Positions 13,249-24,172 of a stretch of DNA of 64,000 nt are shown here, piece after piece. This DNA comes from an uncultured Flavobacteriales bacterium (GTDB lineage: Bacteria; Bacteroidota; Bacteroidia; Flavobacteriales_D; Crocinitomicaceae), in contig CAJXJK010000005.1 in NCBI GenBank assembly GCA_913054135.1, positions 124,001 through 188,000 of the forward strand. The letters are read 5' to 3'. The notes beneath the pieces were generated by a model. It saw only the letters and a list, made by a program, of their open reading frames with translations, was not told the origin of the DNA and ran no database searches. Position 1 is the stretch's first letter. Each line of letters starts with the position of its first letter. A program made the translations under genes and the position numbers.

Positions 13249-13968
13249 TTACTCAAACTTAGTTTCTGAAAAAGGGTCAAACTCATTCATTGGGTTCAAT
13301 TCAACAACCGTTTGATCTTTAACCTGCATTGTTCTCGAAGGAAATTTCTCCATAATAGTTAAATCATGAGTCGCCATTAAAACAGCAGTTCCCTCTTTTG
13401 CAATTGCCATTAACACGGCCATAATTTCGGCAGATGTTTCGGGATCTAGATTTCCAGTTGGCTCATCTGCAAGAATGAATTCAGGATTATTAATTAGTGC
13501 CCTAGCGATTGAAACCCTTTGCTGCTCTCCACCAGATAATTGGTGAGGCATTTTGTTTTCAATGTGATCTAGACCAACTAGTCTCAATACTTGATCAGCT
13601 CGTTTTTTAATCTCATCTTTCTTTTTCCAACCTGTTGAGCGCATCACGAAACGCAAGTTTTCATGAACAGTTCTGTCTGATAAAAGCTGAAAATCTTGAA
13701 AAACCACACCTAATTTTCTTCTCAAAAAAGGAATTTGCTTTCTTTTTAGGTCGTGAAGAGTTATTCCAGCCACATGACCTTCACCTTTTTCTAAAGGCAA
13801 TTCACCATATAATGTTTTGAGTAAACTACTTTTCCCCATCCCCGTTTTACCAATTAGATATACGAATTCACCTTTGTCTAAGTGAATATTAACGTCTTTC
13901 AAAATTAATTTTTCGCCTTGGTGAATCTCGCCGTGGGCAATAGAAAAGATGTGATTTGTTGTGTCCAT
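13249..13968 (-). CDS. ftsE: FtsE-like ABC transporter ATP-binding protein
   Basis: A 239-residue ATPase with Walker A GKTGMGKS (40-47), Q-loop VVFQDF (88-93), signature LSGGEQQR (144-151), Walker B FILADEP (164-170) and switch His201. Sequence around the Q-loop and QRVSIARALINNP is characteristic of FtsE, which with the membrane protein FtsX regulates cell-wall hydrolases at the division site. No ftsX is adjacent, which is common in Bacteroidota. The gene is divergent from the TPR/barrel operon with a 228-base spacer. A LolD or MacB-type ATPase is the alternative, but FtsE fits better. Confidence 0.9.
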   Translation of the reverse strand: MDTTNHIFSIAHGEIHQGEKLILKDVNIHLDKGEFVYLIGKTGMGKSSLLKTLYGELPLEKGEGHVAGITLHDLKRKQIPFLRRKLGVVFQDFQLLSDRTVHENLRFVMRSTGWKKKDEIKKRADQVLRLVGLDHIENKMPHQLSGGEQQRVSIARALINNPEFILADEPTGNLDPETSAEIMAVLMAIAKEGTAVLMATHDLTIMEKFPSRTMQVKDQTVVELNPMNEFDPFSETKFE

Positions 13969-14196: not shown

Positions 14197-17100
14197 ATGA
14201 AGAGATTAAGTCTCATATTATTACTTCTGATCGGTTTATCCGCTCATTCACAATGGACAGACAAGTACGCGTCTGACAATGTAGATTTCTATCGTGCTGA
14301 AGAATTGTTTGAAAAAGCAAAATTTTCTGCTGCTCAAGAAGAGTTCAGAGTGTACATGAAAACTCATGAATCTGCAAATCATCCATTTTATGTGAAAGCG
14401 AAGTATTATGACGCATTATGCGCATTATACCTTTATCACCAAGATGCCGAGAAGTTGTTGCTGGCTTTCTTAGCTGAGTACCCTGAGAGCATCTATCGTC
14501 AAGAAGTTTATTTTGAATTAGGAAGATATTATTATCGAAAAAATCTGCACAACAAAGCAATTGATTGGTTCACTCAAGTAGAAGTTTTTGACTTATCAGA
14601 AGATAAAAAACCAGAATATTACTTTAAACTCGGTTACTCTAACTTCAGAAAAAGCAAGCTGACTAAAGCCAGAGATGCCTTTTACGAAATAATCGAGGTT
14701 GAATCTCAGTACAAAGATCCGGCCCTTTATTACTATTCGCACATTGCCTATTCTCAAAAGAATTACGAAGTAGCTCTGAAAGGTTTCAGAAAGCTTGAAA
14801 GTAACGAGAACTTCAAAAAATCTGTACCACCATACATTGCTCAAATTCTATACTTGCAAGGTAAGTATGATGAATTGTTAGAGTATGCGCCACCATTAAT
14901 GGAGGGCGATAACAAGAAGAATTCACTTGAAATGTCTCATTTAATTGGAGACGCTTTCTATAGAGTAGGGAAATATGATGAAGCCGTTCCTTTCTTAGAA
15001 GAATACAACAACAAAAGTGCTACTACCAGAGATGAAGATTATCAATTAGGCTTTGCTTACTTCAGGTCAAATCAAAACATTGAGGCCGTAAAAATGTTTG
15101 ACAAAGTTGCGAAGGTGAAAGATGCTCTGGGCCAAATGGCGCTTTATCATATCGGAGAAGCTTATTTAAAAGAAGAGAATTATCTGTATGCCAGAAATGG
15201 ATTTGAATTGGCGGCAGCTATGCATTTTGACGAAGAAATTGAAGAAGATGCACTTTATCAGTATGCCGTTCTCTCTTACAAATTAGATTACAATCCATTT
15301 GATGAAGCCGTTGAGGCAATGAATCTTTACTTGAAAAGATATCCTGATTCTCCAAGAACGCAAGATATCTATCAATACTTGGTGAATGTTTACACCACCA
15401 TGAAGAATTATAAATCTGCAATGGCTTCTATTGAACGTATTGAAGACAAAGATTTTAAAATGAAAAATGCTTATCAAATGATGGCATACAATAGAGGTGT
15501 AGAGTTGTTTGATGATGGAAAATACCTAGCGAGTAAGCGAGCTTTTGAATTGGCTAGAAAATATCCGGTTGATCCTAAGATAAACGCATTGAGCCATTAC
15601 TGGCAAGCAGAAGCGGACTATAAAAGAGATGATTTTGATGGCGCAATAAGAACATACAGAAAATTCCTTGAGATTCCTGGAAGTTACGGATTGGTTCAGC
15701 ACAATGACGCATATTATAACATTGCTTACTGCTACTTTAAAAAAGGTGATTTTGCTTCGGCAATTCAGAATTTCAGAACTTTTACACAAGATCCAACTGA
15801 GACTTCTCATGTAAAAATAGCTGATGCCTATTTAAGAGTAGGGGATGCTTACTTCGCTAATCCTGACAAAGTAAGGAGAAGAGAAAATGATGAAAACGCC
15901 ATTAAGTTTTACGGACTAGCAATTGCCGAAGATGGAGGTCAAGTGGATTACGCAAAATTCCAAACAGGATTGACTTATGGGTTCATGCAGAACTATGATA
16001 AAAAGGCTTCTACAATGCTTGACATTGTTAATAATCACAGCAAGTCAACATTTGCAGTGCCTGCTTTATATGAAGTTGGTGAGGCTTATAGATTGATGGA
16101 TAATCAACATTATTCTCAAGCTATGAAGTATTACAATCAGTTAATAATTGACCATCCAAAACATCCAAAGGTGATTGACGCAGTATTTCAAATTGCAACA
16201 TTACATTTCATTCAAGAAGAGTATAGATCAGCTGAAAAGCAATACTTGAGAATAATTAATGAGTTTGATGATCCGGTAAAAGAAAAAGAAGCGCTTGCAA
16301 GGTTGAAGGATGTTTACACAGCTCTCAACGAACCGGATAAATACTTCGATTTAATTGCAGAGACTCAAGGACCAGTGAATCAATATGAGAAAGACACCTT
16401 ACTTTATTTCTCTGGATTTCATCAGTATGAAGATTCACTATATGATCAGGCAATTGTTGCTTTCAAACGTTATTTAGCTGAGTTTTCAAACCCAATTTTC
16501 GTAAGAGAAGCTCATTACTACAAAGGTATTTCGCACTTCAAATTAGGGCAAAAAGACATAGCGCATGTTCATTTTAAAGAAGTACTTAAGCGACCAAGTG
16601 GTTTGGGAACAGAGTTTTGTGCAATGGAGGCTTCAAAGTATGAATATGACGCACAAAATTATGATGCAGCAATTGATTATTACGAGAAGTTAGAACAGGC
16701 AGCCTCTTACCCTGGAAATGTATTGGCAGCTCGAATTGGTTTGATGAGGTGTTTCACTTTCAACAAGCGTTTTGACTTGGCTAAACCTTATGCACAAAAA
16801 GTATTGGTTGATCCACTTGCTCTAGATAATGCGAAAATTGAAGCACATTATGTTCTCGGAAAAGCTGATCAAGCAACAGCTAGTTACGAATCAGCAATTG
16901 AACACTATCGTGAAGTAACCAATGAAACAAATGGAGAGATAGCAGCTGAATCACAGTTTAACATTGCATTGATCTTCCACTTGCAAGAAGAGTATTCACT
17001 CTCTGAAGCTGAGGTAAGAATCTTAATGAAAGAACAAGCGGGATATGATTACTGGGTTGCAAAAGCTCTTATTCTTCAAGCCAAAAATTCAATCGGATTA

Positions 17101-17280
17101 GAAGATTATGTTCAAGCAGAGTACACTTTAAATTCAGTGTTGAATGGATACAATAATCCTGATGACGGAATAATAGATGAAGCAAATGAGGTAATGGCAG
17201 TTCTTCAAGGATTGAAAAATAAAGACAAGGATATTCCTGAAGATGGAGATAATACAATTGAGATAGGAGGAGACCAATGA
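14197..17280 (+). CDS. Large secreted TPR protein coupled to an outer-membrane barrel
   Basis: A 1027-residue protein with a signal peptide (MKRLSLILLLLIGLSAHSQ). Almost the whole remainder consists of tetratricopeptide-like helix pairs, e.g. KPEYYFKLGYSNFRKSKLTK near 138, ALYHIGEAYLKEENYLYAR near 313, AYYNIAYCYFKKGDFASAI near 506 and AHYYKGISHFKLGQKDIAHV near 770. It ends in an acidic tail. It is predicted periplasmic or attached to the outer membrane. The stop overlaps the next start by four bases (ATGA), and the last codons contain an AGGAGG ribosome binding site for that gene, so the two products are probably made together. TPR proteins of this size usually act as scaffolds; the function is unknown. 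Confidence 0.88.
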   Translation: MKRLSLILLLLIGLSAHSQWTDKYASDNVDFYRAEELFEKAKFSAAQEEFRVYMKTHESANHPFYVKAKYYDALCALYLYHQDAEKLLLAFLAEYPESIYRQEVYFELGRYYYRKNLHNKAIDWFTQVEVFDLSEDKKPEYYFKLGYSNFRKSKLTKARDAFYEIIEVESQYKDPALYYYSHIAYSQKNYEVALKGFRKLESNENFKKSVPPYIAQILYLQGKYDELLEYAPPLMEGDNKKNSLEMSHLIGDAFYRVGKYDEAVPFLEEYNNKSATTRDEDYQLGFAYFRSNQNIEAVKMFDKVAKVKDALGQMALYHIGEAYLKEENYLYARNGFELAAAMHFDEEIEEDALYQYAVLSYKLDYNPFDEAVEAMNLYLKRYPDSPRTQDIYQYLVNVYTTMKNYKSAMASIERIEDKDFKMKNAYQMMAYNRGVELFDDGKYLASKRAFELARKYPVDPKINALSHYWQAEADYKRDDFDGAIRTYRKFLEIPGSYGLVQHNDAYYNIAYCYFKKGDFASAIQNFRTFTQDPTETSHVKIADAYLRVGDAYFANPDKVRRRENDENAIKFYGLAIAEDGGQVDYAKFQTGLTYGFMQNYDKKASTMLDIVNNHSKSTFAVPALYEVGEAYRLMDNQHYSQAMKYYNQLIIDHPKHPKVIDAVFQIATLHFIQEEYRSAEKQYLRIINEFDDPVKEKEALARLKDVYTALNEPDKYFDLIAETQGPVNQYEKDTLLYFSGFHQYEDSLYDQAIVAFKRYLAEFSNPIFVREAHYYKGISHFKLGQKDIAHVHFKEVLKRPSGLGTEFCAMEASKYEYDAQNYDAAIDYYEKLEQAASYPGNVLAARIGLMRCFTFNKRFDLAKPYAQKVLVDPLALDNAKIEAHYVLGKADQATASYESAIEHYREVTNETNGEIAAESQFNIALIFHLQEEYSLSEAEVRILMKEQAGYDYWVAKALILQAKNSIGLEDYVQAEYTLNSVLNGYNNPDDGIIDEANEVMAVLQGLKNKDKDIPEDGDNTIEIGGDQ
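17265..17270 (+). promoter_or_regulatory. Strong Shine-Dalgarno for the barrel gene
   Basis: AGGAGG lies six bases before the ATG at 17277, inside the last codons of the TPR gene. Canonical Shine-Dalgarno sequences are rare in this window, so it suggests tuned, coupled translation. Confidence 0.6.
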
Positions 17281-19004
17281 TAAAGTTTGTAAAACATACT
17301 AGTCTTTTGATTTGCTTTTTAGTGAGCGGATTGAGCTATGCACAAGGTGAAACTGAAATCATTTCAGAAGCCGAACGTCCGATTTCACCATCTTACCGAA
17401 TCACTGAGATTCCAAAGGTGATTGATACCGTTATTCCAATTCCTAACATTGATTATCCGCTTTTAATTAGAAACAAGGAAACTGAGATTAACCTAAATGA
17501 TATTGAGGCGTCTCGTATTAAAATTGTAGATAAGTTAGAGAAGCTTTATCCTGGATATATTAAACTTGGGTTAGGAAACTATACTACTCCAATAGGAGAG
17601 TTTTACTACAACACAACTCGTAATCGCCGAACAAATATGGGGGTTCATGTAAAACACCATTCTTCTTGGGGAAAACTGAACGGCTGGTCACCACAGACAT
17701 TTGACAATACTGAAGGTAAACTGTTTGGTGAATTCTTTGCAACCGACTATAAGTTTGAAACTGAAATTGATTACTTGAATAGTGGATACCATTTTTATGG
17801 AGTAGAAGATACAACAGACTTCTTCACAACAGATTCATTGAGAAATAGAGTTCAAGGTTTTGGCGGAATGTTTAAAATGTCAAACAACAGTAGAAAAGAC
17901 TCGGCAAAATTATTGTGGTCGGCAACTTTGGGAAATCAATATTTTCATGAGTTCCAAAGACCTTGGGACACTTCTGACAAGCATGCACGAAACAATAATT
18001 TTAGAGCAGGAGCCGCTTTTAAATACAAGCATTTAAGAAATGTATATAATCTTGATTTTGATTGGTTGTATAATAGGTATTGGTATGCTGAGAATGACGA
18101 AACATTACCAACCGAAGAACGATTTAATGAGCGTAATGCAAACATCCATTTCAGACCAACCATTTCAACATATGGTGAAAAATGGAAGATTGTTTATGGT
18201 TTAGATATGGTATTTGACTTCCCTAAGGTGAACACCAATGAGAGCATCTTTAAAGTTGTTCCTGTAATTGAAGGAAAGTATAGTCTGTTTGATGATATGT
18301 TTATTCCATATGTAGGTATAGATGGTGGCGTGACTCAAAACTCATTTTATACTTTGAATAGAATCAATCCTTATATGTATTCAGGAACTGAATTGCTCAA
18401 TGAGAGGTTGTTCAATTTGTATGGCGGAATCAAAGGAACACTATCAAAAACAATATCATTCAATATTGCTGCACATCTGAAAAATTACAAGAACAAAGCT
18501 TTATTCGTGAATATGAATACTCCACAGGCTGGCGGTTTAATTAATACTGATTTGAACAGGTATGATGTGATCTATGACAATATGAATTCAATGGGACTTG
18601 AAGGTTCAATGTCTTTTCAGTTAGATGAGAAATTGAAAATTGATGCGATTACACAGTATTATAGATACAATCCTGAGAATGAATTGTACGCTTGGCATTT
18701 GCCAGAATTGAAGTTCACCTTGAGAGGTAGCTACAATATGTTTGATAAGATTTATGCGAAGGCAGATTTCACTTTAGAGCAAGGTCGCAAATCTCCGGTT
18801 TATTTATTCAACCCGGCAGATGATAATATTGCTGTGAACATGCCAGTAATTGCTGATGGTAACCTAAGTGTTGAGTACAGATATAATAGCAGAATATCAG
18901 CCTTTGTTCAATTGAACAATATCGCCGCACAAAAGTATGATCGTTGGTATAATAACCGCGTTCAAGGTTTCCAAGTTCTTGGTGGTGTTACTTTCGGATT
19001 TTAG
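17277..19004 (+). CDS. Plugless outer-membrane beta-barrel protein (TonB-receptor-like barrel)
   Basis: A 575-residue protein with a signal peptide (MIKFVKHTSLLICFLVSGLSYAQ). There is a short periplasmic N-terminus without a TonB plug domain, then alternating amphipathic strands to the end. It terminates in GGVTFGF, with the C-terminal phenylalanine typical of outer-membrane barrels recognised by the BAM machinery. Strand-like segments such as KTISFNIAAHLKNYKNKALF and FTLRGSYNMFDKIYAKADFT recall TonB-dependent receptor barrels. It is translationally coupled to the 1027-residue TPR protein, which suggests a physical complex at the outer membrane. Substrate or role is unknown; porin-like or assembly functions are both possible. 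Confidence 0.85.
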   Translation: MIKFVKHTSLLICFLVSGLSYAQGETEIISEAERPISPSYRITEIPKVIDTVIPIPNIDYPLLIRNKETEINLNDIEASRIKIVDKLEKLYPGYIKLGLGNYTTPIGEFYYNTTRNRRTNMGVHVKHHSSWGKLNGWSPQTFDNTEGKLFGEFFATDYKFETEIDYLNSGYHFYGVEDTTDFFTTDSLRNRVQGFGGMFKMSNNSRKDSAKLLWSATLGNQYFHEFQRPWDTSDKHARNNNFRAGAAFKYKHLRNVYNLDFDWLYNRYWYAENDETLPTEERFNERNANIHFRPTISTYGEKWKIVYGLDMVFDFPKVNTNESIFKVVPVIEGKYSLFDDMFIPYVGIDGGVTQNSFYTLNRINPYMYSGTELLNERLFNLYGGIKGTLSKTISFNIAAHLKNYKNKALFVNMNTPQAGGLINTDLNRYDVIYDNMNSMGLEGSMSFQLDEKLKIDAITQYYRYNPENELYAWHLPELKFTLRGSYNMFDKIYAKADFTLEQGRKSPVYLFNPADDNIAVNMPVIADGNLSVEYRYNSRISAFVQLNNIAAQKYDRWYNNRVQGFQVLGGVTFGF

Positions 19005-19102: not shown

Positions 19103-19459
19103 ATGAAAAAATTATTCCTTTTAGCATCATTCGTAGTGATGGGACTTGGAGCTAACGCACAAGTTATCGTTGAAGAAACTAACATCAATGAATTAGATGT
19201 TAAGTTTGTTGAGCTTGTTGGTAGAAACAAAGTAGGATTCGGAAAAATCAAAATTATTGTTGACTATGGTCAAGAATTAAAGATTTTCAAGTCTCAAGCT
19301 ATCCGTTCTGCTGACGGAACTAAAGCTGCATTTAATTCAATGATTGACGGATTGAACTTTATGGAAGCTAACGGATGGGATTTTGTTTCTAACTACGTAA
19401 TTCCAGCTACAACGGAAGGTGGAAATAACGAAGTAAGATACATTCTTAGAAAAAGATAG
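19103..19459 (+). CDS. Small secreted protein, DUF4177-like pattern
   Basis: A 118-residue protein with a signal peptide (MKKLFLLASFVVMGLGANAQ). The mature part begins with a beta strand (VKFVELVGR) and ends with a helix and strand, LNFMEANGWDFVSNYVIP...YILRKR. This resembles the pattern in DUF4177-like proteins, in which LNxxGxxGWE is followed by an exported strand. The likeness is by eye and uncertain. It has its own terminator directly downstream and about 98 bases of upstream spacer, so it is probably an independent unit. Function unknown. Confidence 0.8.
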   Translation: MKKLFLLASFVVMGLGANAQVIVEETNINELDVKFVELVGRNKVGFGKIKIIVDYGQELKIFKSQAIRSADGTKAAFNSMIDGLNFMEANGWDFVSNYVIPATTEGGNNEVRYILRKR

Positions 19460-19467
19460 ATTTTCTT

Positions 19468-19505
19468 AACTCCCCTTTCTTAATTGAGAGGGGAGTTTAC
19501 TTTTA
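19468..19505 (+). terminator. Intrinsic terminator after the small secreted protein
   Basis: AACTCCCCT (19468-19476) pairs with AGGGGAGTT (19489-19497) around a 12-base loop, followed by a T-rich stretch (TTTACTTTT). The nine-base stem is perfect. Confidence 0.75.
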
Positions 19506-19517
19506 ATAATTGATGAC

Positions 19518-20078
19518 ATGAAAAATATATTTGCAATTGCATTTATCGGACTTTCATTTGCAGCTTCGGCACAAGATGAATTTCAATTAAAGATGAATGA
19601 TGATAAAAAAGTTGAATACCAAGGGGTAATCGAAAATGCTGATGCTAAATCAGCTGATTTATATAAGAAGGCAATTTCTTGGTGTGAGAACACTGATAGA
19701 TCACAAACAGTAGATTTTAAAGATCCTGAAGTTGGTAAAATCGTAGCAAAATCTTCTTTCAGTACGGTTGGTAAGAAGAATGCATATACGTACAAATCAT
19801 ATCACTACACATTCGTATGTGATGTTGTTTTAGAATTTAAAGATGGCAAAACAAGGTATACCCTTGAGAACTTCAAAAAGAAGTCTTCTCCGGGTGAACC
19901 AGGTTCATCTCTGGAGTATTTTATTGAAAACTATAAGCCAAAAGTTTCTTCTGAGAAATCAAGAAACAGAGAAGCTAAGATGTTAGATGCTATTGAGCTT
20001 GCTATTCAAGATCAAGTTTGGGATCTAATTGATGACTTAAAAAAGAACTTAGGGCCAGACGCAAAAGACGACTGGTAA
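19518..20078 (+). CDS. Secreted DUF4468 domain protein
   Basis: A 186-residue protein with a signal peptide (MKNIFAIAFIGLSFAASAQ). It has the layout of the DUF4468 family: a KVEYQGVIENADAKSADLYKK helix start, a central YHYTFVCDVVLEFKDGKTRYTLENF strand pair, and a charged C-terminal helix. DUF4468 proteins are abundant in Bacteroidota and have a TBP-like fold; their role is unknown. It lies between two clear terminators, hence probably monocistronic. It may be functionally connected to the preceding small secreted protein, but there is no direct evidence. Confidence 0.85.
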   Translation: MKNIFAIAFIGLSFAASAQDEFQLKMNDDKKVEYQGVIENADAKSADLYKKAISWCENTDRSQTVDFKDPEVGKIVAKSSFSTVGKKNAYTYKSYHYTFVCDVVLEFKDGKTRYTLENFKKKSSPGEPGSSLEYFIENYKPKVSSEKSRNREAKMLDAIELAIQDQVWDLIDDLKKNLGPDAKDDW

Positions 20079-21085: not shown

Positions 21086-21880
21086 ATGAAAAAATTTTTC
21101 AAATTCTTTATTAGTAAGCAGTTTTTACTCAACCTGGTAGCTATTGGTGTCGTTTGGATTTTGATAATTCAAATTGATAAGTGGTACTTAAAAAGCACGA
21201 CCAATTTTGGCGAAAGTATTAGTGTACCTTCATTTTACAAAGTTCACATGGATGAGCTGGATGAATTTGTCAGTGATAACAACCTGACCTACGAAATCGT
21301 AGATTCAGTGTATTTAGATGATTGGCCAAAAGGAACTGTCTGCTGGCAATATCCAAGACCTACTGACTCTTCAGGAATGGGGATTAAACAAGGTAGGGTG
21401 ATTGAATTATCAATCGTTCCGCTTGCACCAAAAATGGTTGCAATGCCACTTGTGACTGATATGTCTAAGCGTATGGGGGAAACAACCCTAGAGGCTTTAG
21501 GTATGAAAACTAAGATCTCATACAAACCTCATCCTTATGCACCAGGATTTATCATGGAGCAACTTTACAAAGGTAATCCAATTGATTCTGGAACATTTAT
21601 CCCAAAGGGAAGTCGAATTGAGTTAGTTGTTTCAAAAGGAAAGACTGGTGAAGCATCTGCACTACCAAATGTTGTTGGGCTTACAATAAAAGAAGCTCAG
21701 TCACGTTTTTCTACTTTGGCACTTTCTATTGAAATTCAATGTGAGGAATGCTTAACTGAAGATGACTACGCAAATGCAGTAATCTCTAAACAGAGTCCTG
21801 CAGGTGGTGAGAACATGACGGTTGCGGCAGGAACACCAGTTACAGTTTGGGCTTCAATTTCAGGAGGTGGCACAGAGTAA
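21086..21880 (+). CDS. PASTA domain protein, membrane anchored
   Basis: A 264-residue protein with one N-terminal membrane helix (about 12-32) and three PASTA-like repeats outside the cytoplasm: SVPSFYKVHMDEL near 46, AMPLVTDMSKRMGE near 118 and ALPNVVGLTIKEAQ near 192. PASTA domains bind peptidoglycan or muropeptides. Unlike the Ser/Thr kinases and PBPs of Gram-positives, there is no kinase or penicillin-binding domain here; stand-alone PASTA proteins are usual in Bacteroidota. It heads a unit with a T9SS cargo gene and rluD. A cell-wall-binding role is inferred from the repeats. Confidence 0.9.
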   Translation: MKKFFKFFISKQFLLNLVAIGVVWILIIQIDKWYLKSTTNFGESISVPSFYKVHMDELDEFVSDNNLTYEIVDSVYLDDWPKGTVCWQYPRPTDSSGMGIKQGRVIELSIVPLAPKMVAMPLVTDMSKRMGETTLEALGMKTKISYKPHPYAPGFIMEQLYKGNPIDSGTFIPKGSRIELVVSKGKTGEASALPNVVGLTIKEAQSRFSTLALSIEIQCEECLTEDDYANAVISKQSPAGGENMTVAAGTPVTVWASISGGGTE

Positions 21881-21889
21881 ATTACTCAA

Positions 21890-24172
21890 ATGAAAAACGC
21901 GATACTCTTAATATTAATTATTGCCGGCTACTCTTCTTTTTCTCAAGAAGTGACTAGCCCTTTGCTAACGAATCCTTCTCTTTATGCTGGACACGGGGGT
22001 GAAATGAGAATGCTAAGAACTTCAACAGGAGATACAATTTCGGTTGATTCAACTTTTACTTACACATACGGCTCGCTTGATTTGACAGATGTTTGGGATG
22101 ATTTTTCAGAAAGTAAGTTCATAAAGTACCCTGCGAATTTTACAGATGCCGGAGTCACTTCTGTTTTATATCACCAATTGATGAATTCGGCTAATACGGT
22201 AGATGAACCTGCTAGTGCCATTTATTGTGACACAGATAAGGCTCGTCACGATTCAGTGAAAATAGTTTCTGGGGTTTTGGATACAGTAGTCACCACTTTA
22301 TTCACGCCTCATTCAATATGGGTTAATAACTTGAATTGCCTGCCAATTGATGGTGAGTTGATGGATTTGTATGATGAGTGTTACGTTTTGATTGATTCAA
22401 TCATTGATGGTGTTCCGCAAATTCAAGACACGGTTTTTTATACTTCTAATCCTAATTATCATCAAGACAGTGCAAGAGTGTTTAATGCATTCAAGAATGA
22501 TCCTAACAAGATCTGGAAGAATAATAACGCTTGTCATAATTATAGATATGCAGTTGATCCTTGGTCATTGGGTGTTGCTACTTTTGATGGAGTTGATTCA
22601 ACTGGTAGACCTTATGATTTTGGAAATGAGAACGCATATGGCGGAGCGGATACACTAACTTCAAAAGAGATCAATTTAACCGGTACTTCTAATGTGTTTT
22701 TAAGCTTTCTTTATCAAGCTCAAGGTCACGGGAATATGCCCGAAGAAGAAGATTCTCTAGTAGTTGATTTCTGGTTGGTAGATTCATTACAATGGTATAA
22801 TATCTGGTATCCACCAGTATTTCCAGCTGCAAACCAATGGGATACTGCACACATTGCTGTGCCACCTAACTTTTTAGAAGACGGATTTAGGTTCAGAATA
22901 AGAAATAGAGCGTCAACATCAGGTGCTTTAGATCACTGGCACATAGATTATGTTGAAATGGAAGAAAACCCAATTTTACCTTGGGAGCCTTATAAAGATC
23001 TTGCAGTCTCAATGCCACTTAACTCTTTGCTTAAGGATTACACTGCCGCTCCTTGGGATCACTTTAGCAATTTAGCGACTCCTGCAGACGCTATGATTGA
23101 TACAGCATTCTTAAAAGTTTATAATTCTGATAATACGCCTACCAATGTTGGTTCTACTTCAATGTTCTTGAAGGTTGATTATGATGGTGCTAATGAATTA
23201 AATTATCAATTACCTAATCCAGGAACAATTCCACCTTGGACAAGTAACTGGGAGCTTGGAGTAAATGAGTTTCCTTTCTTCGTTTCGCCTAATTATACAT
23301 TTAGTGCCCCAGGAAATGATTCAATAGCCATATTTGACGTGACAATTAATGCTGATGCTGATGTTGCTGCTTCAAACGCACACAAGGTAAATGATACAAC
23401 TAGGTTTCAGCAAGAATTCAAAAACTTCTACGCTTATGATGATGGGTCTGCTGAGGTTGGGTATGGAATCACAGGTTCTAACTCTCAATTAGCTTATGGG
23501 TTTGAAGCATACGAGTCAGATACTTTAACGGGAATTTTAATGCACTTCGTGCCAACTGTTGTTGATGTGAGTCAATACATTATGTTGTTGACTATTTGGG
23601 ATGCTGACAGTGAAGGGAATCCTAGCACTATTTTATATCAAGATGATTATTTCACGCCTTCTTATCCTCAATATGGAGCATCAAAAAATGAGTTTAAGTA
23701 TTACGAGTTTTCTAATCCTGATTATGCTTCTGAAATTGTTGTTCCTGAAAAGTTTTATGTTGGATGGGAACAAATTGAAAGTCAAACATTGAACATTGGG
23801 ATGGATAGAAATACAAACAGTGGACAAGAGATTAAGTTTAATGTTGGTGGATCTTGGATTACATCAAGTCAAGAAGGCTCATTAATGATTCGTCCAGTAT
23901 TTTCAACTGCCATTAATCATACTTTAGGTGAAAGAGAAGAGCCAAATCAAATCATCTCTATGTATCCAAATCCAACAAAAGACATCATTTCTTTTAGTGG
24001 ACTAAGTGGCGAAGATCAAATTTCAGTTTATGATATGAGTGGCAGATTGGCTATCTCAGAATCTAATTCAACGAACTTGAATGCTGATTTCCTTACAAAT
24101 GGAGTTTATCTTGTGAACATCACTGATGCATCAGGAAATACAATTTTCTCTGAAAAGCTAATTAAGCAATAA
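21890..24172 (+). CDS. Large secreted protein with type IX secretion (T9SS type A) sorting domain
   Basis: A 760-residue exported protein with a signal peptide (MKNAILLILIIAGYSSFSQ). The C-terminal 75 residues form a Por-type sorting domain: SMYPNPTKDIISFSGLSG, then VYDMSGRLAI and GVYLVNITDASGNTIFSEKLIKQ. This directs export across the outer membrane by T9SS. The middle (about 230-360) contains a jelly-roll/lectin-like stretch (LTSKEINLTGTSNVFLSFLYQAQGHG). There is no obvious catalytic motif. Its stop overlaps the start of rluD by one base. Role probably surface-exposed binding or adhesion, but not demonstrated. Confidence 0.88.
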   Translation: MKNAILLILIIAGYSSFSQEVTSPLLTNPSLYAGHGGEMRMLRTSTGDTISVDSTFTYTYGSLDLTDVWDDFSESKFIKYPANFTDAGVTSVLYHQLMNSANTVDEPASAIYCDTDKARHDSVKIVSGVLDTVVTTLFTPHSIWVNNLNCLPIDGELMDLYDECYVLIDSIIDGVPQIQDTVFYTSNPNYHQDSARVFNAFKNDPNKIWKNNNACHNYRYAVDPWSLGVATFDGVDSTGRPYDFGNENAYGGADTLTSKEINLTGTSNVFLSFLYQAQGHGNMPEEEDSLVVDFWLVDSLQWYNIWYPPVFPAANQWDTAHIAVPPNFLEDGFRFRIRNRASTSGALDHWHIDYVEMEENPILPWEPYKDLAVSMPLNSLLKDYTAAPWDHFSNLATPADAMIDTAFLKVYNSDNTPTNVGSTSMFLKVDYDGANELNYQLPNPGTIPPWTSNWELGVNEFPFFVSPNYTFSAPGNDSIAIFDVTINADADVAASNAHKVNDTTRFQQEFKNFYAYDDGSAEVGYGITGSNSQLAYGFEAYESDTLTGILMHFVPTVVDVSQYIMLLTIWDADSEGNPSTILYQDDYFTPSYPQYGASKNEFKYYEFSNPDYASEIVVPEKFYVGWEQIESQTLNIGMDRNTNSGQEIKFNVGGSWITSSQEGSLMIRPVFSTAINHTLGEREEPNQIISMYPNPTKDIISFSGLSGEDQISVYDMSGRLAISESNSTNLNADFLTNGVYLVNITDASGNTIFSEKLIKQ

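Follow-up and report, generated by a model that had tools for sequence, protein, structure and literature searches.

The window analysed here is a stretch of 64,000 nucleotides (contig CAJXJK010000005.1, positions 124,001 to 188,000 of the forward strand) from an uncultured Flavobacteriales bacterium of the Crocinitomicaceae. At the locus under study, a gene for a tetratricopeptide repeat (TPR) protein of 1027 aa (14197 to 17280, plus strand) is followed by a gene for an outer-membrane barrel protein of 575 aa (17277 to 19004, plus strand). The initial annotation had described an ATGA overlap between the two open reading frames (ORFs), and the ORF list agrees with both the overlap and the positions. 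Sec-type signal peptides without a lipobox were recognised by eye at the start of both proteins. Divergently from the pair, as had also been noted before, the gene of an FtsE-like ABC ATPase lies on the minus strand (13249 to 13968); its best match was the NCBIfam FtsE model with 249.1 bits, slightly below the cut-off of 264.85.

An AGGAGG at the end of the TPR gene had been proposed to serve the barrel gene and to be a rare sign of tight co-production. The motif is present upstream of the barrel start codon (17265 to 17270, plus strand, within the TPR coding sequence), it ends 6 nt before the ATG, and the same letters encode Gly-Gly of the TPR protein. Its rarity did not hold up, and we give the motif little weight because the window contains 20 copies of it, 12 on the plus and 8 on the minus strand. 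Loci of 40 relatives were fetched and 18 of them inspected; 10 of these have a match of the GGAGG/AGGAG type near the TPR stop, within a wide interval of about -40 to +60. The argument for co-production rests on the gene overlap and the conserved adjacency, not on AGGAGG.

Conservation of the pair was followed first in a sample of 59 related genomes; 40 loci were fetched from relatives whose closeness ranges between a shared genus and a shared order. The barrel was found in 57 of these genomes, FtsE in 58 and the TPR protein in 58 (E<=1e-3), the TPR match in G047 (E 9.5e-4) being marginal and probably spurious. In each of the 40 fetched loci, the TPR ORF was followed by a barrel ORF in the same orientation, including L051, where the TPR frame is broken by a stop, and FtsE lay within the fetched stretch in 32 of them, some of the others being clipped by contig ends. 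From a named collection, 80 further loci were fetched, mostly of close relatives, with Crocinitomix and other Crocinitomicaceae as the closest matches. Here the barrel was at most two ORFs from the TPR gene in 76 of 76 evaluable loci, and the same distance held for a divergent FtsE in 69 of 77. A link to division had been called conceivable, and we judge it to be more than that because ftsE is kept beside the pair.

The TPR protein and the barrel are a real, deeply conserved pair also beyond the window's order (order as assigned by the tool used). Among 26 sampled members of the class outside it, the barrel came after the TPR gene in 25, four times with an intervening ORF of 127-304 aa; one of these loci (L069) stops right after the barrel, and in the exception, G109, the two genes lie about 190 kb apart. 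A divergent FtsE adjoined the TPR gene in nine of the 26. Over the phylum (118 genomes sampled), profile searches gave TPR matches at E<=1e-30 in 84 genomes and barrel matches at E<=1e-3 in 62, the latter weak outside the window's class; every one of the 29 sampled members of this class had both. A larger sample of the class gave a barrel in 177 of 197 genomes at E<=1e-10. The 20 genomes without a match include one of 0.5 Mb and families in which divergence or loss of the barrel may be the cause.

Some genomes depart from the single adjacent pair. G182 carries two TPR-barrel pairs (L226 and L227), whose TPR proteins are 46% and barrels 53% identical; FtsE was seen in the fetched stretch of only one of them. 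In G060, the TPR profile picks up a second TPR protein of 868 aa (L229, 4329 to 6932), with no barrel gene within the 10 kb fetched. Long open frames in genus g114 of family f49 had suggested a fusion of the two proteins, a candidate that was rejected when four fetched loci showed separate ORFs or overlapping frames.

The reading of the first protein as a secreted TPR solenoid was borne out by many TPR matches in Pfam, accompanied by other helical-repeat models, and by an AlphaFold (AF2) model that is an all-helical solenoid (pLDDT 86, pTM 0.55). The models above their cut-offs were plain TPR, TPR-like ANAPC3, TPR_Slam, which describes the N-terminal TPRs of Slam (Pfam, 37.8 bits against a cut-off of 35.2), and the NCBIfam tol_pal_ybgF, whose 149.4 bits (cut-off 90.1) are spread over repeated stretches of the protein; we read the last two as probable generic TPR cross-matches. 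The CpoB trimerisation domain PF16331 was absent from the Pfam matches at E<=0.1, the PorW/SprE model of NCBIfam reached 26.3 bits, far below its cut-off of 250, and in a fold search of the PDB the only hits were helical solenoids of generic type, at low TM-scores. Over 38 aligned homologues, the best-conserved part spans about residues 161-440, and a C-terminal motif of IEI type, a loose pattern, occurs in 22 of them. Identification of the pair with the canonical BAM, the core of the type IX secretion system (T9SS), Slam or the polysaccharide exporters was dropped, the passing models being read as generic TPR matches.

The barrel had no good family match in Pfam or NCBIfam, and a sequence search of the PDB returned a single de novo protein (E 0.38). 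Its AlphaFold model, computed from the 39-row alignment A1, is a barrel of 22 strands by our own count (residues 93-574, pLDDT 82, pTM 0.75). TonB-dependent transporters ranked first in Foldseek, BtuB with E 2.9e-17, and the superposition on BtuB with VIA-align covered 393 residues at 3.2 A with a Z of 20.8. This structural alignment begins only at BtuB residue 134-135 and the first strand of the model at residue 93; together with the lack of any Pfam plug match, this agrees with the earlier description of a barrel without a plug. The C-terminal Phe, described likewise, is present in 35 of 39 aligned homologues. What occupies the usual plug position of a transporter is an N-terminal tail of low confidence, about residues 24-91 (17346 to 17549, plus strand), with pLDDT block means of 41-60 up to residue 90 and partial conservation across homologues. 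The A1 profile also picks up L225, a normal transporter that has both plug and barrel domains (E 3.3e-12 within its genome); its alignment covers the last ~180 residues of our barrel with 44 bits. The fold match to BtuB and the kinship with L225 make loss of the plug from a transporter barrel the most likely origin of this protein. With TonB-dependent transporters such as BtuB and FhuA it shares the 22-strand fold, the sequence relationship of its C-terminal part and, in several lineages, the linkage of its gene to TonB and ExbBD; unlike them, it lacks a plug domain, it matches PF00593 in only one of 39 family members (E 0.02), and it has a constant TPR partner gene.

That linkage was found in several distant lineages as a gene run TPR - barrel - HU/SPOR - ExbB - ExbD - TonB-like - folC. 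SPOR domains bind septal peptidoglycan. An HU/SPOR-type gene adjoins the barrel in 10 of the 26 members of the class sampled beyond the window's order and in all 13 genomes of a distant set, which was hand-picked from 33 with weak barrel matches; ExbB is linked to the barrel in 7 of the 26 and 9 of the 13. The TPR gene is adjacent to the barrel in seven of the distant genomes, once with a 144-aa ORF between, and remote in the other six. Since the HU profile was built by iteration and may drift, linked calls were also scanned in Pfam, where HU or SPOR models matched in 9 of 11, above the cut-off in L053, L059, L062, L064, L070, L083 and L088 and below it in L066 and L067, with no HU or SPOR match in L071 and L082. 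Pfam confirmed ExbB in four of four and ExbD in two of two linked proteins scanned, as well as folC in L083; of five TonB-like proteins, two were above the TonB_C cut-off, two below, and the one of L083 had no match. In one locus of the named collection, L203, ExbB-ExbD-TonB-like genes lie somewhat further downstream. Depending on the lineage, the pair is linked to HU/SPOR-ExbB-ExbD-TonB-like genes or to FtsE. The pair had been proposed to be a periplasmic adaptor with an outer-membrane channel. An envelope pair with a plugless barrel still stands; the genes for HU/SPOR, ExbB, ExbD and TonB-like proteins that adjoin it in other lineages, and which the window by itself does not show, point to a system that is probably powered and not passive.

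The genome from which the window comes has two PF01618 (ExbB) matches. A tree of 37 ExbB rows, from which two low-scoring PF01618 matches without a locus were left out, placed the folC-linked ExbB of this genome in a clade (support 97/99) with the barrel-linked ExbBs of the class. The second ExbB grouped with paralogues; three ORFs follow it, and the one scanned (238 aa) is an ExbD. Over the tree, the linked or paralogous state requires one change, compared with a mean of 12.4 after shuffling. When proteins of this genome were compared by BLAST with 23 linked loci, ExbB matched 17, folC seven and ExbD six. The TonB-like protein of the genome is putative, being so named from its gene position and C-terminus.

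Tol-Pal couples outer-membrane constriction to division in many diderms. Of the 118 phylum genomes, 6 had a TolB_N match (PF04052), four of them without and two with the TPR family; the 29 from the window's class, among them the window's own genome, had none. In a 2025 paper (PMC12204202), identifiable tol-pal loci are said to be lacking in Bacteroidetes, no pal genes are reported in the Bacteroidetes genomes considered, and PorE is proposed as the outer membrane-peptidoglycan tether of these bacteria. The gene set described above resembles Tol-Pal in its envelope and division context and in that a motor of TolQ/TolR type, a transducer of TonB/TolA type and a TPR protein share one neighbourhood in several lineages. 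It departs from Tol-Pal in the missing TolB_N, in a TPR protein that has 1027 aa and no CpoB trimerisation domain, and in a plugless TonB-receptor barrel where Tol-Pal has the Pal lipoprotein, for which no search was made. PorE is likewise a proposed filler of the missing Tol-Pal role, but it is described as a CpoB-TolB-carboxypeptidase-Pal fusion lipoprotein (PMC12204202), whereas TPR protein and barrel are separate here.

The explanation that we tentatively favour is that the TPR-barrel pair belongs to a proton-motive-force-driven, Tol-Pal-like system for constriction or tethering of the outer membrane. Such a role is preferred because the parts fit force transduction (motor, transducer, periplasmic scaffold, outer-membrane end, septum-associated partners), tol-pal loci are reported to be lacking in the phylum and TolB_N is missing from the class sample. 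Within a widespread trans-envelope system of Bacteroidota, the pair would form the half located in periplasm and outer membrane; a proton-driven ExbB/ExbD (TolQ/TolR-like) motor would power a TonB/TolA-like transducer, and this in turn would act on the outer membrane via the TPR scaffold and the plugless barrel of TonB-receptor type. The barrel would then fill the role held by Pal elsewhere, the HU/SPOR membrane protein and FtsE would position the system at the division site, and the whole would draw the outer membrane inwards or tether it during wall constriction. From the data above we infer the physical contact, the energy coupling, the septal location and the outer-membrane role. A more specific form of this proposal, possible but rather doubtful, would make the set a core force-transduction machine, in which a TonB-type motor works on a plug-free TonB-receptor barrel via a TPR arm of ~1000 residues and links chromosome and septum, by way of HU/SPOR and FtsE, with constriction of the outer membrane; it would be the Tol-Pal that the phylum lacks, built from TonB parts.

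Several observations weigh against a Tol-Pal-like role. An open 22-strand barrel is odd as a mere tether. HU or ExbB was found within a few ORFs downstream in none of 59 evaluable loci of the named collection, and FtsE and ExbB occurred together in no locus of the class, distant and named-collection sets. With near-duplicates retained, a test for a TonB box in the barrel tail gave only a weak signal (19 of 150 at p<=0.05, compared with 9 of 150 for a control region). The first ExbB of the window's own genome sits in an ExbB-ExbD-TonB-like-folC set that is unlinked to the pair, and two HU proteins of this genome, one of them HU-HU-SPOR (L103) and the other from L104, are likewise unlinked to it; the HU-HU-SPOR protein matched 3 and the TonB-like protein 1 of the 23 linked loci in BLAST, and the latter had no Pfam match at E<=0.01. 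The split between all barrel-linked and paralogous ExbBs has a support of 67/83 and appears in 68% of bootstraps. As to Tol-Pal itself, the control genome of Bacteroides ihuae does match TolB_N, and putative TolB-Pal fusions are mentioned for some taxa in PMC12204202. The same side of the balance holds the absence of a plug and the co-occurrence with SprA, which are taken up with the alternatives below.

To our knowledge, the route by which Bacteroidota export lipoproteins to the cell surface is unsolved, and the pair could be a powered export channel, with the barrel as pore, the TPR solenoid collecting periplasmic cargo such as surface lipoproteins and an ExbBD-TonB-like module supplying energy. 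Slam and the synthase-dependent exporters (AlgK/AlgE, BcsC, PelB) pair a TPR region with an outer-membrane barrel. A pore would suit a barrel without a plug, the TPR_Slam score above its cut-off and the presence of the barrel in most genomes of the class, and there is a precedent in Myxococcus, where secretion of the protease PopC is reported to require a TonB-dependent transporter together with ExbB, ExbD and TonB (PMC6434023). The Slam match is weak, however, because TPR models cross-match one another, and neither the Slam barrel nor the barrel families of the other exporters had a match here in Pfam; unlike those systems, TPR and barrel are two proteins, with 22 strands in the barrel. Linkage to FtsE and HU/SPOR is moreover not expected of an exporter, and we consider this explanation unlikely.

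Less probable still is an accessory part of the T9SS, an idea that draws on the distribution of the TPR family over the 118 genomes. It tracks SprA, with 83 of the 84 TPR genomes SprA-positive (both in 83, TPR only in 1, SprA only in 8, neither in 26). This co-occurrence may only follow descent, given that 19 of the 20 genomes listed among the 27 without SprA belong to family f26, and the TPR-barrel set is not confined to SprA genomes, since the single-contig genome G060 carries the run TPR-barrel-HU/SPOR-ExbB-ExbD-TonB and has no SprA match. The low PorW/SprE score and the lack of a T9SS component among the scanned neighbours also speak against it. Finally, a barrel that resembles TonB-dependent transporters in fold and, in part, in sequence would fit a dedicated importer of a nutrient or metabolite, a plug-less transporter variant with the TPR protein as periplasmic gate; this is very improbable, as the barrel is mostly single copy and present in most genomes of the class, unlike substrate-specific transporters, and as it is linked to FtsE or HU/SPOR.

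Among the other genes of the window, two small secreted-looking proteins are encoded 3′ of the barrel (19103 to 20078), the second of which matches DUF4468 in Pfam. The gene at 21086 to 21880 encodes a membrane-type protein that has three PASTA stretches and matches no kinase domain in Pfam, and the protein encoded next (21890 to 24172) carries a T9SS sorting tail. Elsewhere in the genome, L104 (7669 to 9570) encodes an HU-CCDC81 protein of 634 aa in which a long linker is rich in Ala and Lys; its C-terminus is SPOR-like by eye and has no SPOR match in Pfam.

The pair had been put forward as a candidate undescribed system, and no description of it was met in a literature search that covered listings and the starts of abstracts, with preprints and most subscription journals outside its scope. 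The linkage to HU/SPOR may already appear in a 2017 survey of the HU superfamily. Another Bacteroidota-specific outer-membrane machinery is the BAM complex of F. johnsoniae, with the subunits BamA, D, G, H, M and P; unlike the locus described here, TPR and FtsE appear nowhere in the main text of its description (PMC12611786). What emerges is a widespread, apparently uncharacterised gene set with the types of parts expected of a Tol-Pal substitute in Bacteroidota. Should it be an exporter instead, it would be relevant to the question of how lipoproteins reach the cell surface in Bacteroidota.

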